Below, piece after piece: positions 6,961-42,004 of a DNA stretch of 42,133 nt. The position numbers and the translations under genes were made by a program. Source of the DNA: a virus. How positions within the stretch are numbered: the stretch's first letter is position 1; every line of letters begins with the position of its first letter. The stretch is taken from positions 1 to 42,133 of IMG/VR virus record IMGVR_UViG_3300020456_000028; one strand, given 5' to 3'. The notes under the pieces were generated by a model. The model was not told the DNA's origin and made no database searches. It was given only the letters and a program-made list of their open reading frames with translations.

Positions 6961-8252
6961 TGTTTAATCCAAAAGAAAATTTATTGGATCAGCAGCTTGC
7001 CGTGTCTGGTCTGGAAATGCAATTTTTTAGAGACCTAATCACTACTGGTGCTTATAGTCGTAATAAAAAGGCAAAGAAAAACGAAAGGAAGCAGAAAAAA
7101 GCAGCCGAGAGAATGGCTCGGATTCAAAACGAGCATAACGATAAACTTGATGCAGCTGATAAAGCTAATTATCAAGCGATGCGTGACTTTACACACGAAA
7201 CCAATGTAACTAATTGGGAACGTGGTAAAGAAATTCAAGACTATCAATATGCCGCGCAGCTTAATCAGTATTACAGAAGCCAATCAATAGGTCAGAGTCA
7301 ACTTCGACTTAATGAGCAGGCTAGGGGAATTGCTATTGAAGGTGAGCGGGCTGCTATTAACGAAGCTTTTATTCAGCAAAATTTCCAACACCAAGAATCG
7401 ATGTCTGCCTTAAAGCAGACTTACGCTGAACAAAGTATTAACCGGGCTGAACAAAACATCCAGCTTGCTGGTATTAATAACCGGCAACAGTTTGGTGCTA
7501 TGAGCATCGAAAATGAATTGAAGCAGCAACGTGCACAAACTGGTTTGCAAAAGGAAGCTACCATGGTTGATAGTCTAGTTGCTCAAGGTACTGCTCAACT
7601 AGGCCAAGCTGGTAAATCTAACGCTAAAGCACAGCAAGCTAACATGGCAACGCTTCATCGTTCACTTATGGCGTTGGATACAGAGTTGTCTGGTAAAAAA
7701 GTGACAGCAGCAATACAAATGGCAGAGCTTAATGCTGATGCATCTCTTTCTAAAATGGGCGTTGGTCTTAATCTAAAAAGGATTGAAAACGCTATTTCAG
7801 ATGCTGAAGGCGCTGCTCAAGCTAATATTCAAGTCCTTAATGAAAACATGCGAAGCTTGCTGGCTCAAGCTGAGCGTAACGTTCAACAAATTGACTTGGA
7901 AAGGAGGGTTGCTGACGCCAACACACGGGCAAGTATGATGATCAAACCACAACGTTTGTCATATGATCCTGAGCCGCAGATGCCCCCTGAGCGTGAGTTT
8001 GTTGACCGTATGGAAGTAGTTCCTGGGTTTGTCCCAGAAGCTCATCAGGAAAACCTGTGGTCTGCAGGTATCAGCACTGTTGGTTCTGTTGTCAGCACAG
8101 TTGCTACTGGCGTTGGTGCAATCAATGCTGTTAATCAAGCTGGTGGTCTTGGCGCTATGGTGGGTAATTTCTTTGGCAGCGGAGGTCCACCTTCAGTTCC
8201 CGGTATAACACCTCCAGTTACACTACCAGGTAGCGTGGGGGCAATTGGTTAA
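6960..8252 (+). CDS. Internal virion protein (T7 gp14 position)
   Basis: The 430-residue product lies between tail tube B and two giant internal proteins, where T7 carries gp13/gp14. The first half is long, charged, Gln/Ala-rich helix (AKKNERKQKKAAERMARIQNEHNDK, then many heptad-like stretches to about residue 320). The C-terminus has an alanine/glycine/valine-rich hydrophobic segment (ISTVGSVVSTVATGVGAINAV) and a proline-rich tail, which could enter a membrane during DNA ejection. I chose the ATG at 6960 over the TTG three bases earlier because of the AGGAGGG site at 6949-6955. The assignment to ejection proteins is by position and architecture. Confidence 0.82.
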   Translation: MFNPKENLLDQQLAVSGLEMQFFRDLITTGAYSRNKKAKKNERKQKKAAERMARIQNEHNDKLDAADKANYQAMRDFTHETNVTNWERGKEIQDYQYAAQLNQYYRSQSIGQSQLRLNEQARGIAIEGERAAINEAFIQQNFQHQESMSALKQTYAEQSINRAEQNIQLAGINNRQQFGAMSIENELKQQRAQTGLQKEATMVDSLVAQGTAQLGQAGKSNAKAQQANMATLHRSLMALDTELSGKKVTAAIQMAELNADASLSKMGVGLNLKRIENAISDAEGAAQANIQVLNENMRSLLAQAERNVQQIDLERRVADANTRASMMIKPQRLSYDPEPQMPPEREFVDRMEVVPGFVPEAHQENLWSAGISTVGSVVSTVATGVGAINAVNQAGGLGAMVGNFFGSGGPPSVPGITPPVTLPGSVGAIG

Positions 8253-8263
8253 ACATTTAAACT

Positions 8264-10846
8264 ATGGCACGTATCCAGTATCAATCCGCTGCACGTAGCA
8301 GGGGATTTAGTCCACAACAATTAAGTACAGCGGGTATTGACCGGATGCGTGAAGACAGCAACCGGCTTATCCAAGGCATGGAGGCACGTCGTCGTTCTGA
8401 AAACGAACGGCGTGATGAAGAACTCCAGGCGATGAAAGAAGACGCTGCTTACACTGAAAGGATTGAGCGTGAGAACCAAAAGATTGCTCTTTACAATGAA
8501 GAGCAACGTGGTAAGGCAATGATCGAACCCACTAAAACTGAGGGGGTCGGTGAGATGTTTACCGGTCTTATGGAGTTTAGTGGTACCCTTTCTAAAGCTA
8601 TTACTCAAGAGGCTAACCGACAAACTAAACGTAACGTCGCTGCTGCATTGGCAGAGCCTATTAGTATTGAGCAAGAACTAGAAGCAGCAAAAGCCAGAAG
8701 GGCTCAGACTGACGGTGGTATTAAACTTAATACCGAAATACGTATCAACGCACTTTTAACAGGTGAAGATCCTGTTGATACAATTAAGAGTCACGTAAGT
8801 AACCCTGCTATTGTTGGTAAGGCAGCACAAGTGTATGACAACCGTCGCGCTAAATTGCTTTACGATACACTGCGTGATGAATACATGATGTCTACTGACA
8901 AAATTTTTGTCGGTGATGATGGTAAATTATTTTCTGGTGTAGAAGCTGGTGGTGACGCTAACCTTACTAGGCAGCTTCATCAACGTCTTAAACAAGATGT
9001 GTTGATTACATTAGGTAACCCTAACCCTGTGTATTTGTCAGAAGCTTTTAAAGCTATTGACGAAAGTAACACATCGTTTGTAAACAGAGCTAGAACCGAA
9101 CAGAAAAAACGGTTTGAGGCTGAGGCTGAGGCTCAGATTGACACCTTGTACAGCAGCGGTGATCCTGAAAACATCATCAGTGCTTTTAATCATTCCGTTG
9201 CTAATTTTGGTCATACATGGGCTTTAGATAGATATCAGGAAGAGTATTCCAAAGCTGATAGCAATGAAAAAGTTTTGCTGTCAATGGATCTAAAGGGTAA
9301 CGGTAAAACCTTTGGTGAAGAATTTCCCAACCGTGTTACAGCTGGTGCCCAAGAAAGAAAAAAAGCTATTGATAAACGGAACAGGATAGAAGAGCGTCTT
9401 AAGGTAGATGAGTTCCAAGCATTGGTTGACAACAACCTTGACAACATCCGTGCTGATTTTGACAAAGATCCTGAATTGACCTATTCTTATCTGCTTGACT
9501 ACGCTAATGAAAGAGGTATTGCTATGCCTGCTAGTGTTAAGCAACTGTACACCGCTGGTAAGAAAAGAAACAAAGAACTAAACAGTCAGTTGCTTGATCG
9601 TCTTGCTAGTAAAGGTATGCTAGATGGTACTTTTATTAACAGCCTGGAAGATAGTAATTTACAAAAACGTGGTAAGGAACTGTTGGCGCTTCAAAACGAA
9701 CGTAATTACGGTCCTGGTTATGCACCTTTGTTAGAAGGTGTTGAAAGTTATGCCAAAGAATTGGCTAATTTTTCTTCTACATTACCTGGCGCTACTACCA
9801 CACAAGTTGAGTTAAATAAAACAGCTATTACAAACTTTATTAAAAAGGACCTAAAAGAAACCCAAGATGCAAACCTCACCCGTAAAAACCTTGAAACACT
9901 ACTTCGTACTGCTAACAATGGGGATCCTACTAATCCCTTTTCCTACACAGAACAAGGTACTGGTAGGCAGTTCCTAAATATCGGTAAGATTGATAGGACT
10001 CGTCAAGAGATGTCAGTGTACATTTCCAAACAGGCTAAAGGTAAAACTGCCGGTCAAGTTGTTGACACACCGTATCTTTTGATGAGCGAAAAAGAGCAGC
10101 AAGAGGTTTCATCTAGAGTTGAACAAGGTCTACCATTTGTCTACCCTGATGGTATTGAGCAAGCTGCTGATATGTACGGTTTGAAACCTAGCGAAGTGTA
10201 TAACGCACAAGCTATAGCAAATAACAGAACCAGTGGCAAACAAATACCTCTTCTTACACCGAGCCCTATTGTTGACATGTACGATGGTCTGAGCCCAGCA
10301 CTTCGTAAAACATTTAAATCTGGTATTGAGAATGGTGTTAGCCAACAGGTTAACCGTGCACTGTCCCCTCAAACTGGTCGTTTACCTGTACGTGCTTCTA
10401 TGGGTGCTAGTGATTTTACTAGCCAACGTGATGCACTACAAACCGCTGCTGCTGAACTTGGTGTTGATCCTATCGACCTAGCTACTATTATTGGTTTTGA
10501 AACCGGTGGTACATACGACCCAGGTCAGGTAGGTGGAGAAGGTGATAACTACCGAGGACTTATCCAATTTGGTGGACCTGAACGTAAAGCCTATGGTGTA
10601 GTACCTGGCATGTCGTTTGAAGAGCAACTGCTCGGACCTGTAGTCGGGTACTTTAAAGATAGATTTGCTAGAGCAGGTATGAGCACAAAAGGTGCTACCT
10701 TAGAAGATTTGTACACTACAGTATTGGCTGGCAACCCTAAAGCTAACCGAGACGCTGCAGATGCTAATGGCACTACCGCACGTAGTGGTGCTAAGAGAAT
10801 GTATGACGAACATAGACCAGTAGCAATTCAACGATTTGGTTTTTAA
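8264..10846 (+). CDS. Internal core protein with C-terminal lysozyme-like domain (T7 gp15 position)
   Basis: An 860-residue protein in the T7 gp15 slot. Residues 1-700 are mostly charged helix, as in gp15-type ejection proteins. From about residue 715 there is a lysozyme/transglycosylase-like domain: DALQTAAAELGVDPIDLATIIGFETGG, where the Glu of FETGG is the likely catalytic acid, then YRGLIQFGGPERKAYGV and SFEEQLLGPVVGYF. In T7 the transglycosylase sits at the N-terminus of gp16, so here peptidoglycan cleavage appears to be attached to the neighbouring protein. It probably opens the cell wall during genome entry. The next gene starts 7 bp downstream. Confidence 0.88.
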   Translation: MARIQYQSAARSRGFSPQQLSTAGIDRMREDSNRLIQGMEARRRSENERRDEELQAMKEDAAYTERIERENQKIALYNEEQRGKAMIEPTKTEGVGEMFTGLMEFSGTLSKAITQEANRQTKRNVAAALAEPISIEQELEAAKARRAQTDGGIKLNTEIRINALLTGEDPVDTIKSHVSNPAIVGKAAQVYDNRRAKLLYDTLRDEYMMSTDKIFVGDDGKLFSGVEAGGDANLTRQLHQRLKQDVLITLGNPNPVYLSEAFKAIDESNTSFVNRARTEQKKRFEAEAEAQIDTLYSSGDPENIISAFNHSVANFGHTWALDRYQEEYSKADSNEKVLLSMDLKGNGKTFGEEFPNRVTAGAQERKKAIDKRNRIEERLKVDEFQALVDNNLDNIRADFDKDPELTYSYLLDYANERGIAMPASVKQLYTAGKKRNKELNSQLLDRLASKGMLDGTFINSLEDSNLQKRGKELLALQNERNYGPGYAPLLEGVESYAKELANFSSTLPGATTTQVELNKTAITNFIKKDLKETQDANLTRKNLETLLRTANNGDPTNPFSYTEQGTGRQFLNIGKIDRTRQEMSVYISKQAKGKTAGQVVDTPYLLMSEKEQQEVSSRVEQGLPFVYPDGIEQAADMYGLKPSEVYNAQAIANNRTSGKQIPLLTPSPIVDMYDGLSPALRKTFKSGIENGVSQQVNRALSPQTGRLPVRASMGASDFTSQRDALQTAAAELGVDPIDLATIIGFETGGTYDPGQVGGEGDNYRGLIQFGGPERKAYGVVPGMSFEEQLLGPVVGYFKDRFARAGMSTKGATLEDLYTTVLAGNPKANRDAADANGTTARSGAKRMYDEHRPVAIQRFGF

Positions 10847-36530: not shown

Positions 36531-36615
36531 ACTTAAACGACCTAACCCACCTACCACCCAAGCTATTGAACGTGCACAATTTAAAGATAAAACGTTCAGA
36601 TGGAATGGGAAGTGA
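36484..36615 (+). CDS. Small basic protein bridging helicase and DNA polymerase (43 aa)
   Basis: The product (MKLKLNQSSTQQQTSELKRP..., ending FKDKTFRWNGK) is basic and polar. It starts within the last codons of the helicase gene and ends 16 bases into the exonuclease gene, filling the whole gap between them. Similar ELKRPNPPT-type peptides occur at this position in other cyanopodoviruses as I recall. Unknown function. Confidence 0.6.
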   Translation: MKLKLNQSSTQQQTSELKRPNPPTTQAIERAQFKDKTFRWNGK

Positions 36616-37130
36616 GTCTAATCTTTGACATAGAAACAAACGGATTGCTTCATGATGTTAGTACCATCCACTGCCTTGCTATCCATGATCTCTCGAATGA
36701 TCAGACGATTGCGTACAATGACACGGGGACCAGTGAGCCGATATCAAGAGGCTTGCAAAGACTACAGGACGCGGACAGGATTATTGGTCACAACATTATT
36801 GGTTACGACATACCTGTTATTCGCAAACTTTACCCTTGGTTTGGTAAGCCTGCTTATGTGGTCGATACTCTACTACTTAGCAGACTCTACCACCCCGACA
36901 TGATAAACTTGGATAAGAATCGTACCTGGGATGGTATGCCTCTCAAGTTATATGGTAAACACTCACTTGAATCTTACGGCTACAGATTAGATGAACGGAA
37001 AGGTGACTACGGTTCCACTTCTAATTGGACAGATTGGTCTCAAGAAATGGAAGATTATTGCATACAAGACGTTCACGTTACCACCAAACTATGGAAACAC
37101 TTCCAGCCCTACCTGAATGGGTCGCGCTAG
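36600..37130 (+). CDS. DNA polymerase, 3'-5' exonuclease part (separate gene)
   Basis: The 176-residue product equals the proofreading domain of T7 gp5: FDIETNG with D10 and E12, GHNIIGYD with D70, and the YxxxD motif Y153-D157 in EDYCIQDV. It ends HFQPYLNGSR at a TAG. In T7 the exonuclease and polymerase are one 704-residue chain. Here the frame closes and the polymerase continues one base back in a new frame from 37091. The two products could assemble into one enzyme. A one-base sequence error in the 37091-37130 overlap is the alternative. Confidence 0.93.
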   Translation: MEWEVSLIFDIETNGLLHDVSTIHCLAIHDLSNDQTIAYNDTGTSEPISRGLQRLQDADRIIGHNIIGYDIPVIRKLYPWFGKPAYVVDTLLLSRLYHPDMINLDKNRTWDGMPLKLYGKHSLESYGYRLDERKGDYGSTSNWTDWSQEMEDYCIQDVHVTTKLWKHFQPYLNGSR

Positions 37131-38362
37131 AACACGAAGTACAACAAATCCTTACTGATCAAGAAATTCATGGATGGGCTTTTGACGAGAACGCTGCATG
37201 GGAACTTGCATCTACTCTCAGACGAGAACTTAGAGAAACTGAAGAACTACTTCGAGACAGGCACCCTTTCGTCCGAGGATCGGAATTCACTCCTAAACGA
37301 GATAACCGCACGCAAGGATATGTCAAGGGTGCACCCTTTACTCGACTGAAAGAACTAAATACATCCTCTCGCGACCATATATCATGGATCTTGCAACAAT
37401 TCTATGGCTGGATTCCAAGCCAGAAGACGACTACTGGGAAACCTGTTATCGACGAGGTGATCTTGAAGGAGATGAACTCGGAAGTAGCGACGATGTTCCT
37501 GCGGATTTTGACGATAACGAAGATGCTTGGAATGATCAGCGAAGGCGCGAACGCCTGGCTGAAGTTGAGTACGACTGCTAAGCGTATTCATCATCATTGC
37601 AGTGTAGCAACTAACACTTTTCGTTGCGCCCACCGTAACCCAAACTTAGGGCAAGTCCCATCAGATGAAAGATTTAGAAGACTCTTTATACCAAGTCCGG
37701 GTTTACGTATGGTTGGCGCTGATCTTAGCGGCATCGAGCTTCGTATGCTCGCTCATTATCTTGCAAGGTATGACGGAGGAAGATACGCGAAACTTTTACT
37801 TGAGGATGACATCCATCAGATTAACGCCGACAAAATTGGAATCTCCAGGCGACAAGTAAAAACCGTAACCTACGCATTTTTATATGGTGCAGGTGACGAA
37901 AAAATTGGACACTCTTATGACCCACAACTTTCGACCACTGCTGCAAAAAAGAAAGGAAAAGAAATTCGTGCAGCGTATGTTGACGCGGTTGATGGATTGG
38001 ATGACCTACTCAAAGCTATTAAACAAGCTGCAGAAAGAGGGTTCATCAAGTCTATCGATGGACGAAAAGTTAACGTTGACTCGCCTCACAAAGCCCTGAA
38101 TTACTGCTTGCAGTCAGGTGCGGGTGTCATCGCAAAACGGTGGATGGTGATCAATCAAGAGACAATAAGAGAGGCACAGATATGTGCTGCTCAATTAGGA
38201 TTTATTCATGACGAGCTACAATTCGAGTGTGCCCCTGAGCACGTCGGAGACTTATCTACATCCCTGGTATATAGCGCTACAGCGGCTGGGGAATACTACA
38301 ACATGCGCATCCGCATCGACGCGGAAGCAACACACGGAAACAACTGGAGTGAGACTCACTAA
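37091..38362 (+). CDS. DNA polymerase, polymerase part (family A, T7 gp5-like)
   Basis: The 423-residue product (start METLPALPEWVALEHE) carries the family A polymerase core: motif A VGADLSGIELRMLAHYLARYD with catalytic D211, motif B RRQVKTVTYAFLYGAGDEKIG, and motif C GFIHDELQFEC with H373 and D374. Residue Tyr261 in motif B is equivalent to E. coli Pol I position 762; Tyr there, as in T7, has been associated with virulent phages. It copies the phage genome, normally with host thioredoxin for processivity in T7. I placed the start at the ATG within the end of the exonuclease gene. Stop and next start overlap (TAATG). Confidence 0.95.
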   Translation: METLPALPEWVALEHEVQQILTDQEIHGWAFDENAAWELASTLRRELRETEELLRDRHPFVRGSEFTPKRDNRTQGYVKGAPFTRLKELNTSSRDHISWILQQFYGWIPSQKTTTGKPVIDEVILKEMNSEVATMFLRILTITKMLGMISEGANAWLKLSTTAKRIHHHCSVATNTFRCAHRNPNLGQVPSDERFRRLFIPSPGLRMVGADLSGIELRMLAHYLARYDGGRYAKLLLEDDIHQINADKIGISRRQVKTVTYAFLYGAGDEKIGHSYDPQLSTTAAKKKGKEIRAAYVDAVDGLDDLLKAIKQAAERGFIKSIDGRKVNVDSPHKALNYCLQSGAGVIAKRWMVINQETIREAQICAAQLGFIHDELQFECAPEHVGDLSTSLVYSATAAGEYYNMRIRIDAEATHGNNWSETH

Positions 38363-38481: not shown

Positions 38482-39248
38482 AGTTACTTGTAGACGCTGA
38501 TTACGTAGTCTACAAATGCTGTGCCGCTGCCGAAACAGAAATTGATTGGGGCGATGATGTAATTCTTGTAACGAGTAAATTTAGTGATGCTTATGCTGCT
38601 GTTAAGCGTGAGTTGCTCAAAATTATTAACAACTTTCTATGGGATGTACCTGAATTAGTTCTGTTCTTTAGCGATAGTGTAAACTTTCGTAAATCCATCC
38701 AGCCCTCATACAAAGGGCATCGCAATCGCAAGAAACCTTGCGGTTACAAACGTGTGATCAACCGACTCAAGACTGAGTACAAAGTTGTCATCATGCCAAC
38801 GCTTGAGGCTGACGATGCCTTGGGTATTTATGCTACACAAAACCGAGGCAAGTGTTGTATCTGCTCGCCGGATAAGGACATGCGCCAAATACCTGGTCGC
38901 CTCTTTGACATGTCAGAAATGATGAATGTGGAAGAGGACGAGGGAGCTAAGTGGCACCTTATTCAAACATTAGCAGGAGATCAAACCGATGGCTACGCAG
39001 GTTGTCCCGGTATTGGTGTTAAACGTGCAATCACCCTCTTTGAAGACAAAGGGTATTCTTGGAAGACTGTCGTTGAAGCGTTTGCTGAGAAAGATCTTTC
39101 CGAAGATGTCGCACTTGAGAATGCACGACTCGCAAAAATCCTCACAGTATCCGACTATGACTTCAACAAGCAACAGCCCATCCTTTGGACCCCCACCGCC
39201 GATTATCGAATTGACGATGGAACAACAGTTCAAAATGCGTCGGATTGA
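38478..39248 (+). CDS. 5'-3' exonuclease (T7 gp6-like)
   Basis: The 256-residue product begins with GTG (KLLVDADYVVYKCCAAAE) and belongs to the FEN/5' nuclease family. Acidic metal-binding sites: LLVDADY, TLEADDALG, SPDKDMRQIPG and GDQTDGYAGCPGIGVKRA, the last being the helix-hairpin-helix region. It removes RNA primers and helps degrade host DNA into nucleotides. T7 gp6 is 300 residues. GTG start is supported by the overlap GTGA with the previous gene. Confidence 0.93.
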   Translation: MKLLVDADYVVYKCCAAAETEIDWGDDVILVTSKFSDAYAAVKRELLKIINNFLWDVPELVLFFSDSVNFRKSIQPSYKGHRNRKKPCGYKRVINRLKTEYKVVIMPTLEADDALGIYATQNRGKCCICSPDKDMRQIPGRLFDMSEMMNVEEDEGAKWHLIQTLAGDQTDGYAGCPGIGVKRAITLFEDKGYSWKTVVEAFAEKDLSEDVALENARLAKILTVSDYDFNKQQPILWTPTADYRIDDGTTVQNASD

Positions 39249-39399
39249 GGATGCACTAAACAACCCCGATACAACAAAGGAAGATATGATTACTGTTTTC
39301 CTTGCTCTACAACGTCAATGCTTTGTGCTTGGCAACAATATGAATCAATTGCTTAAACAATGGCAGAATCCCCCGATCATTACACCCGAGGATCAATAG
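39217..39399 (+). CDS. Small conserved protein (60 aa)
   Basis: The product starts MEQQFKMRRIEDALNNPDTT and includes ITVFLALQRQCFVLGNNMNQ. It is helical and found after exonuclease genes in related phages as I recall. It overlaps the end of the exonuclease gene by 32 bases and the following gene by 40. Unknown function. Confidence 0.68.
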   Translation: MEQQFKMRRIEDALNNPDTTKEDMITVFLALQRQCFVLGNNMNQLLKQWQNPPIITPEDQ

Positions 39400-39659
39400 A
39401 AGTCTGGGACTTTATTCGAGACCAAGATCTTAACTACCACCTTGGTAATGCTATTAAATATATTTGCAGAGCCGGTTACAAGTCTTCTGAATCGAAAGAG
39501 GCGGATCTTAAAAAGGCTATCCACTACCTTGAAAATGAACTCTACCACACAACACTGTACATCGACCAGTCTGAGCGATCAAGCAATTCAATTCCGTTCA
39601 GCGTATGGGATCAAGAACAGTTCGGAGAACCGGACTATGCAACTGGCTTTGATCGATGA
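39360..39659 (+). CDS. DUF3310 protein (T7 gp1.7-like nucleotide kinase domain)
   Basis: The 99-residue product has the DUF3310 pattern: PDHYTRGSIEVWDFIRDQDL, LNYHLGNAIKYICRAGYK and EADLKKAIHYLENEL. In T7 gp1.7 this domain is part of a nucleotide kinase that phosphorylates dGMP and dTMP; other members are of unknown role. It lies with MazG-like and RNR genes, so a nucleotide role fits. Its last 125 bases also encode the start of the next protein in another frame. Confidence 0.82.
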   Translation: MAESPDHYTRGSIEVWDFIRDQDLNYHLGNAIKYICRAGYKSSESKEADLKKAIHYLENELYHTTLYIDQSERSSNSIPFSVWDQEQFGEPDYATGFDR

Positions 39660-39918
39660 AGAATATAAAGAGTTTCGTAGTGCATTTTACAATGAACCTT
39701 ACGAAGCTGAACTAAAAGAGCTAGCAGATCTTATATATGTCTGCTTTCAGTATGCTGAAAATATGGAATGGGATCTAGAGGAAGCACTTGATCGTGTCCA
39801 TAAGTCAAACATGTCTAAGCTTGGACTCGACGGTACACCTATCCGCCGTGCGGACGGCAAGGTCTTGAAAGGACCAAACTACAAACCACCTATTTTGAAC
39901 GATCTCGTTAACCCATGA
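39535..39918 (+). CDS. MazG-like nucleotide pyrophosphohydrolase
   Basis: The 127-residue product shows the MazG pattern: SDQAIQFRSAYGI, LALIDEEYKEFRSAF with the EExxE metal site, and ELKELADLIYVCFQYAENM with ExxD. Cyanophage MazG enzymes hydrolyse dGTP and dCTP, or affect (p)ppGpp in some models. The start at 39535 is needed to include the first helix, so the gene overlaps DUF3310 by 125 bases. The stop overlaps the RNR alpha start (ATGA). Confidence 0.85.
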   Translation: MNSTTQHCTSTSLSDQAIQFRSAYGIKNSSENRTMQLALIDEEYKEFRSAFYNEPYEAELKELADLIYVCFQYAENMEWDLEEALDRVHKSNMSKLGLDGTPIRRADGKVLKGPNYKPPILNDLVNP

Positions 39919-41291
39919 CAACCTCTTATATTTCTCGTACGGGTCGTGTCCAGTCTTGGCTGGATGACCCTACTTCACGTTTGCCGGTGTCCTGTACTGT
40001 TTTCACCGTAGAAGATAGTATCGAAGGAGACAATGGAATTGAAGCAAGCTGGAAGTTTGTGTCTCACGCACTGCGTTTTGGCGCAGGTTGCGCAGTTCAC
40101 CTTTCCAAGCTGCGACCAAAAGGAACAGAAAATGACAAAGGACTGGTTGCATCTGGTCCTGTCAGCTTTGCCAAAATCTATAGCACACTAAATGAGATCC
40201 TCCGTCGCGGCGGGGTGTACAAGAACGGCGCTGTGGTGTGCCATATCGATCTCTCGCACCCAGATGCTTTGGAGTTTATCAAGACTCCACGATCTGAGCT
40301 ACCCTGGGTTAAGCGGTGCATTAACATTAAACCAGAATGGTGGGAAGCATGTGACTTTAAAGAGGAACTACTTCACGGCATTAAATCTGGCGACATTTGG
40401 CTCAACAAAGTAAAATACGATGACGAAGGAAACCGAATCCGAGGTAATGTCTGCCTTGAAGTTTACCTGCCCTCACGAGGTACCTGTTTACTCCAACATG
40501 TATCTCTCGGTGCCTGTGAATTCGACGACATCCCTAACGCTTTCTTTGAAGGTATGTCCCAGTTGTGCGAACTCCATGGTAAAACAGGTGTTGGCGAAAG
40601 CGGAGAATATCTCCCTAGCAAAACTGACCGACAAGTGGGGCTCGGGATGCTCGGACTCGCCAATCTACTTCGTCGATACGGAGTAACCTACGACCAATTT
40701 GGTCGTGCTCTTGAACAGTACAACAACGGTGAAATCATCAGATCTCCTGCTTATGAACTTGTATCACAGATTGCCTCTGGTGTTGATCTCGCCGCTGGAG
40801 TTGCTCGCCGTAACAACATGGTTCGAGCCTTTGCTATTGCGCCGACCGCCAGTTGCAGTTATCGAAGCTTGGATCTGGATGGCTATACTTCAACACCAGA
40901 AATCGCTCCACCTATCTCGCAGACAGTCGATCGCGACAGCGGTACTTTTGGAGTACAAACATACAACTATGGTGACGTAGAGATCGCCAGTAAAGTAGGC
41001 TGGGAGGCTTACAAACGTGTTGCAGATGGCATCATGACTCTACTCGACAGGACTGGACTTCTTCACGGTTACAGCTTCAATTCGTGGTCCGATGTGGTCA
41101 CGTATGATGAAGCGTTCATCGAAGAGTGGCTTGAATCGCCCCAGACTTCTCTTTATTATAGTCTCCAAGTTATGGGCGACGTTCAAGATAAGTCCAGCGC
41201 GTATGCAGCTCTCGAAGAAGACGACGTAAATGACTATCTGAACAGCCTACTTGAGGACACTCCTGAACCTCAATGTGATTGTGCAGAATGA
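39915..41291 (+). CDS. Class I ribonucleotide reductase, alpha subunit (short cyanopodovirus type)
   Basis: The 458-residue catalytic subunit reduces ribonucleotides to deoxyribonucleotides. Visible active-site residues: C27 (redox Cys), N178-x-C180-x-E182 (GNVCLE, with thiyl radical Cys), C191 (partner redox Cys), a Tyr-Tyr pair in TSLYYSLQ for radical transfer, and a C-terminal C454-x-C456 for re-reduction. It has no ATP-cone and is much shorter than E. coli NrdA (761). Such cyanophage enzymes were long called class II, but the P-SSP7 type has been re-assigned to class I; the beta gene right after it agrees. ATGA overlap with beta. Confidence 0.93.
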   Translation: MTTSYISRTGRVQSWLDDPTSRLPVSCTVFTVEDSIEGDNGIEASWKFVSHALRFGAGCAVHLSKLRPKGTENDKGLVASGPVSFAKIYSTLNEILRRGGVYKNGAVVCHIDLSHPDALEFIKTPRSELPWVKRCINIKPEWWEACDFKEELLHGIKSGDIWLNKVKYDDEGNRIRGNVCLEVYLPSRGTCLLQHVSLGACEFDDIPNAFFEGMSQLCELHGKTGVGESGEYLPSKTDRQVGLGMLGLANLLRRYGVTYDQFGRALEQYNNGEIIRSPAYELVSQIASGVDLAAGVARRNNMVRAFAIAPTASCSYRSLDLDGYTSTPEIAPPISQTVDRDSGTFGVQTYNYGDVEIASKVGWEAYKRVADGIMTLLDRTGLLHGYSFNSWSDVVTYDEAFIEEWLESPQTSLYYSLQVMGDVQDKSSAYAALEEDDVNDYLNSLLEDTPEPQCDCAE

Positions 41292-42004
41292 ACCCTTATC
41301 AAAAACTAATGGCGCGGAAGCGCAAATGGACGCCAGTACAGACAACTGCTGGTACATGCAAGCAGGGCGCGGAAGAAGCAATCTACCGTGCTCTTGCTTT
41401 GCGACACATGGAACTACCTGTGGGAGATTTTATTACCCATGCCCTCGATCATGAAGTACCAGCGTTGGCACGCGAAGTATTGGTGTCAAACGTCACGGAC
41501 GAAGAAAACCACGATCTCGCACTTGGTTACATTGCCAATGCTTACGGTGTTGATGAAACGGCTGAGAAAGAAGCCAAGAGGCTTAGGACCGCTTGGGAGG
41601 CACATCCAGATCACACGATCACCAAAGCACTTGTTGCCGAACGTGCGATTTTCTTCGTTCTTCTACCATTCTTTCGCTTTAATGGTGACGCTGGTATGAG
41701 GACCGTTTCAGCGGATATCAGCCGAGATGAGCAAATCCATGTGGCGGTTAACTCACTGGCACACACCGAGCTGGGCTACAACATCAGCCCATCCCTGGAC
41801 AAGCTTCGTAAAGCTACCATTAACTGGGTAATGCAACCACTAGGTATAAATACCGTGGACAAATATCTGGACAAAAAATTTTGGTTGGAATCTAGCGACC
41901 GGCTAATGTATGAGGGCAAGGCTCCTCAACTTGCCGAAACTAAATCAGCCAGAATGCCTGCCTTTTTTGAGCATAGTAATGTCAACCTCCCCCAGTATGC
42001 TTGA
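41288..42004 (+). CDS. Class I ribonucleotide reductase, beta subunit lacking the radical tyrosine
   Basis: The 238-residue, helical ferritin-like product has metal-ligand patterns: Glu29/Glu30 (GAEEAIYR) as candidate first ligand, E72-x-x-H75 (DEENHD), E118 (VAERAIFF) and E148-x-x-H151 (RDEQIH). The residue four after H75, where E. coli NrdB has radical Tyr122, is Leu79. So the radical must be made or stored differently, as in other Tyr-less subclasses. It is much shorter than usual (about 320-375). I chose the ATG overlapping the alpha stop, not a TTG nine bases earlier. Confidence 0.88.
   Translation: MNPYQKLMARKRKWTPVQTTAGTCKQGAEEAIYRALALRHMELPVGDFITHALDHEVPALAREVLVSNVTDEENHDLALGYIANAYGVDETAEKEAKRLRTAWEAHPDHTITKALVAERAIFFVLLPFFRFNGDAGMRTVSADISRDEQIHVAVNSLAHTELGYNISPSLDKLRKATINWVMQPLGINTVDKYLDKKFWLESSDRLMYEGKAPQLAETKSARMPAFFEHSNVNLPQYA

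Follow-up and report, generated by a model that had tools for sequence, protein, structure and literature searches.

The ribonucleotide reductase (RNR) gene pair of Prochlorococcus phage P-SSP7 entered the literature as a proposed class I subclass, 'Cyano SP' (Harrison 2019, PMC6370689), and the P-SSP7-type enzymes were later set in a separate clade, class Ø (Burnim 2022, PMC9531940). Class Ø is associated with marine microbes, and its beta subunits have a redox-inert residue, Phe or Leu, where the radical Tyr would be (eLife, PMC9531940); according to the class Ø authors, beta may be unstable when no metal is bound (PMC9531940). The NVCLE sequence around the catalytic Cys has been reported as class Ø-specific, occurring in neither the class I nor the class II sets (PMC9669993). 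A redox-inert Leu or Phe at the radical site is likewise present in the class Ic reference sequences (PMC12918982). No class Ø enzyme with a measured activity or an identified metal was found in the literature consulted, and a 2026 preprint still terms the class biochemically uncharacterised. Class Ø has also been proposed as an early branch of oxygen-tolerant RNRs.

The window analysed here (42,133 bases) is an entire IMG/VR virus record, IMGVR_UViG_3300020456_000028. It encodes psbA and thyX together with a T7-like capsid, tail, terminase, RNA polymerase, helicase, DNA polymerase and exonuclease, and therefore it is assigned to a marine T7-like cyanophage; the nearest annotated records are the uncultured phage MedDCM-OCT-S04-C24 and the Synechococcus phages S-TIP37 and S-RIP1. 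A preliminary description of this sequence placed an RNR gene pair at 39915-42004, and these limits proved exact. The features of the locus are as follows:

39442 to 39918, plus strand: MazG-like nucleotide pyrophosphohydrolase, upstream of alpha and overlapping its start
39915 to 41291, plus strand: class Ø RNR alpha (catalytic) subunit, 458 aa, from ATG at 39915 to TGA ending at 41291
41288 to 42004, plus strand: class Ø RNR beta (ferritin-like, radical-generating) subunit, 238 aa, from ATG at 41288 to the stop at 42004
41501 to 41512, plus strand: E72-E73-N74-H75, first EXXH metal motif (E72 and H75 in 184/184 betas)
41522 to 41524, plus strand: Leu79 codon CTT (H75+4), position of E. coli Tyr122
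41729 to 41740, plus strand: E148-Q149-I150-H151, second EXXH metal motif (E148 in 184/184 betas; H151 in 183/184, one unreadable)
41996 to 41998, plus strand: Tyr237 codon, invariant C-terminal Tyr (183/183 betas)

The MazG-like frame is given as the longest open frame, and the real start is probably further downstream; S-CBP4 and Syn5 have a MazG-like gene in the same position before alpha. In the same region, the DNA polymerase at 36600-38362 is encoded in two pieces, an exonuclease of 176 aa and a polymerase of 445 aa, whose open frames overlap in different reading frames. The annotators of S-TIP37 remarked on the same split, for which a frameshift and a true split are the candidates. A small ORF at 39217-39399 overlaps the exonuclease gene at its end and scores 24.5 bits against NblA (phycobilisome degradation adaptor), the Pfam cut-off being 25.

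All catalytic Cys, Asn and Glu residues that had been attributed to an alpha of only 458 residues lacking an ATP-cone could be located. C27 and C191 are the redox pair, C180 is the thiyl site in the finger loop N178-V-C180-L-E182 (NVCLE), Y414 and Y415 form a dyad, and the C-terminus carries C454-D-C456 (CDC). In a Pfam scan of alpha, PF02867 was the sole match, and no match to an ATP-cone was obtained. N178, C180, E182, C191, Y414, Y415 and C456 are kept in 145-146 of 146 distinct sequences; of 202 alphas, 171 have NVCLE and many that lack it are incomplete, and the C-terminal motif of related alphas is CXC in 113 and CXXC in 88. The alpha and beta genes overlap by 4 bases (ATGA), as they do in 96 loci, and in almost every locus beta comes after alpha. 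The dN/dS values against relatives, approximately 0.06-0.11, indicate strong purifying selection. These values, the full-length family match of beta and the 791 bits of alpha against 7urg show that the resemblance is not accidental.

Similarly, the 238-residue beta has the full set of Glu and His ligands, with Leu79 at the Tyr122 position, in agreement with the preliminary description. The first-sphere ligand set consists of E42, E72, H75, E118, E148 and H151, and the second-sphere residues are D71 and D147. Across its whole length (1-238/238), beta matches the PHROG family 'ribonucleotide reductase class Ia beta subunit' with 445 bits. The C-terminus is Y237-A238, one residue past the Tyr, which would have the role of E. 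coli Tyr356; the alpha-binding tail that class I betas carry beyond the transfer Tyr is absent from beta, which ends at residue 238.

The pair shows the feature set of class Ø: a short alpha without an ATP-cone, NVCLE, YY, CXC, a beta of approximately 240 aa ending after a Tyr, and L79. On its sequence, it is an ordinary member of this already described class, and high identity to clade members suggests that it falls within the class Ø clade. The class of these two genes is the smallest kind of RNR known. The preliminary description had referred to the P-SSP7 type as a proposed class I subclass; that proposal was indeed made (PMC6370689), but the type was later set apart as class Ø (PMC9531940).

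The residue at position 79 was surveyed in an alignment of 184 distinct betas from viral contigs, bacterial assemblies and phage records, collected with search patterns that spanned residues near 79, not 79 itself, and that may miss strongly divergent betas. Position 79 is Leu in 181 of these sequences and Phe in 3, and Tyr occurs in none. The Leu79 codons among the relatives are CTT, TTG, CTG, CTC and TTA, five of the six Leu codons, and it is therefore the residue that is kept, not the DNA. W14, E42, D71, E72, H75, E118, F122, D147, E148 and W180 are invariant in all 184 betas, H151 is invariant but for one sequence in which a base is unreadable, and Y237 is invariant wherever it could be read. 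When a stand-in for Tyr122 was sought by conservation among the 184 betas, no Tyr was invariant except the C-terminal Y237; Y33, Y86, Y193 and Y208 vary. As far as aligned sequences can tell, the missing radical Tyr is a fixed property of class Ø (184/184 betas). The survey of position 79 is new in the present analysis, a Phe or Leu there having already been published, and with no other non-terminal Tyr fixed it offers biochemists a narrower target.

The AlphaFold2 model of beta, built with 49 relatives, has a mean pLDDT of 90.1 and a weak C-terminus. Both Foldseek and VIA-align put class I betas on top among the matches listed, with Z of 19-20 and rmsd of approximately 3 Å over 214-222 residues, and the Mn/Fe Chlamydia NrdB is among the top structural matches. 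The order of the ligands along the helices is that of class I betas. A sequence-only search of beta against the PDB gave no match, and a profile search returned mostly class I betas, all under significance. In a profile-profile alignment, L79 is paired at a weak score (probability 1.9%, E 0.026) with E. coli Tyr122, which is residue 123 if Met1 is counted; across ten class I betas, the profile-profile mode recovered the expected register without reaching significance, and a global alignment missed it. The structural alignments begin at model residue 1 against residue 33 of E. coli, 16 of Salmonella and 36 of Chlamydia. The transfer Trp residues of these proteins we take to be W48, W31 and W51, respectively. 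From these alignment ranges and Trp positions, W14 of beta may match the transfer Trp (W48 in E. coli), with a two-residue offset that is equal in all three proteins.

The best overall explanation, which we regard as quite probable, is a functional two-subunit class Ø RNR in which a metal-held oxidant would act on alpha through proton-coupled electron transfer (PCET). The gene pair, the catalytic and ligand residues, the class motifs and the purifying selection are seen directly, and the class I beta fold is that of a predicted model. In such an enzyme, two metals would be bound by beta at E42/E72/H75/E118/E148/H151, and oxygen would be activated there. Since residue 79 is a Leu and hence redox-inert, the oxidising equivalent would stay on the metal pair, for which Mn/Fe, the class Ic cofactor, is the most likely identity and Mn/Mn a less likely one. 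The PCET path would run from H75-D147-W14 to Y237, and from there through the alpha dyad Y415/Y414 to C180. Finally, C180 would initiate nucleotide reduction, and C27/C191 would be re-reduced via the C-terminal CDC of alpha. Deoxynucleotides for phage replication would be supplied without the B12 needed by the host enzyme. The missing alpha-binding tail and the non-significant sequence similarity to class I betas count against this explanation. It is conceivable, though we rather doubt it, that the class Ø beta has a dimetal initiator or a mode of alpha docking unlike any characterised class I subclass; the features behind this idea are the Asp in the second sphere and the missing alpha-binding tail. 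If it were true, these two genes would represent an RNR type with a new mechanism. The interest is low for the present locus and moderate for class Ø overall.

A radical on another beta residue near the metals, such as Y81, a Trp (W180 or W14) or a modified residue, would also fit a beta with Leu79, and both Trp residues are invariant. Y81 is Tyr in 175 of the 184 betas; however, the other 9 have Phe, Met, Leu or Asn, and ideal-helix geometry places Y81 approximately 150 degrees from the ligand face, compared with at most 10 degrees for L79. By the same estimate, the variable Y33 faces away from the ligand face, and Y86 is 19 Å along the helix. Such a radical seems unlikely to us.

We give still less weight to a class II (B12) enzyme beside a ferritin-like protein that is not an RNR subunit, a very improbable combination even though the early annotations of relatives read class II and the class II model NrdJ_Z scores higher on alpha (67.5 bits) than NrdE_NrdA (48.5 bits). 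The finger loop here is NVCLE, not NPCXE, the YY dyad of alpha is invariant together with the C-terminal Tyr of beta, and the beta gene regularly follows alpha and overlaps it here. In addition, in the S-CBP4 structure the YY dyad sits where the adenosyl group of cobalamin would be (PMC9531940), which argues against class II. That beta is an R2-like oxidase type protein, with a substrate other than alpha, is scarcely credible: the ferritin-like fold, the two-metal motifs and the absent radical Tyr would suit it, but the 4-base overlap with alpha in 96 loci and the invariant C-terminal Tyr would not. R2-like oxidases were absent from the 50 structural matches listed, which in itself excludes nothing. 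The two-subunit RNR with a metal-held oxidant is the reading that we prefer.

Class Ø genes were also observed in other genomes. In two cyanobacterial genomes, class Ø alpha adjoins beta: at 8177-10306 of locus L235 (472 kb contig G039:C1) and at locus L236 of a Limnothrix MAG (G003:C93). Limnothrix is a freshwater genus. The G039 pair lies deep inside the chromosome, flanked by genes reading as proline-tRNA ligase and methionine synthase. That class Ø might be the sole RNR of some cyanobacteria was rejected, as G039 and G003 also carry the B12-dependent RTPR. Calothrix membranacea FACHB-236 has a class Ø-like beta (L105:2929-3720; 46% identical, C-terminus NLPEYY) among ordinary cellular genes, and a profile search of its genome found no class Ø alpha. 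In Microcystis phage Mic1 and its relatives (L087:2983-3753; MN013189.1:74739-76049), beta and alpha are approximately 12 kb apart, unlike in nearly all loci; a Mic1 beta without alpha was rejected, since alpha is found at this distance in the same record. In Prochlorococcus phage P-RSP2 (L088), matches to the beta homologue fall into two segments and its frame breaks at 184 residues, possibly through a sequencing frameshift or because the RNR pair is damaged; the record has no annotated gene at this place.

Among known systems, the class Ø RNR of S-CBP4 (alpha cryo-EM structure PDB 7urg, PMC9531940) is 75% identical in alpha (791 bits) and 75-78% in beta, and it shares gene order, motifs, sizes, YY, the C-terminal Tyr and the redox-inert residue at the radical site; only small length differences separate it from the present pair, none found to bear on function. 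The P-SSP7 enzyme ('Cyano SP', labelled If, PMC6370689) is 73% identical in beta and 67% in alpha, which bears out the earlier view of the present pair as another enzyme of this type. Comparison with the residues tabulated for the P-SSP7 beta gives the same eight in the metal spheres, E E H E E H D D (PMC6370689), the P-SSP7 beta numbering being off by one after E42. The class Ic NrdB of Chlamydia trachomatis (Mn/Fe; 4d8f, 4m1i, 2ani) shares the redox-inert residue at the Tyr site, the same six first-sphere ligands (Table 3, PMC6370689) and the same fold (Z 19-20). On the other hand, beta is only 14% identical to it, is approximately 100 residues shorter and lacks its C-terminal alpha-binding tail, and in the second sphere, before the first EXXH, beta has D71 (184/184) where Chlamydia class Ic has a Glu, E119.
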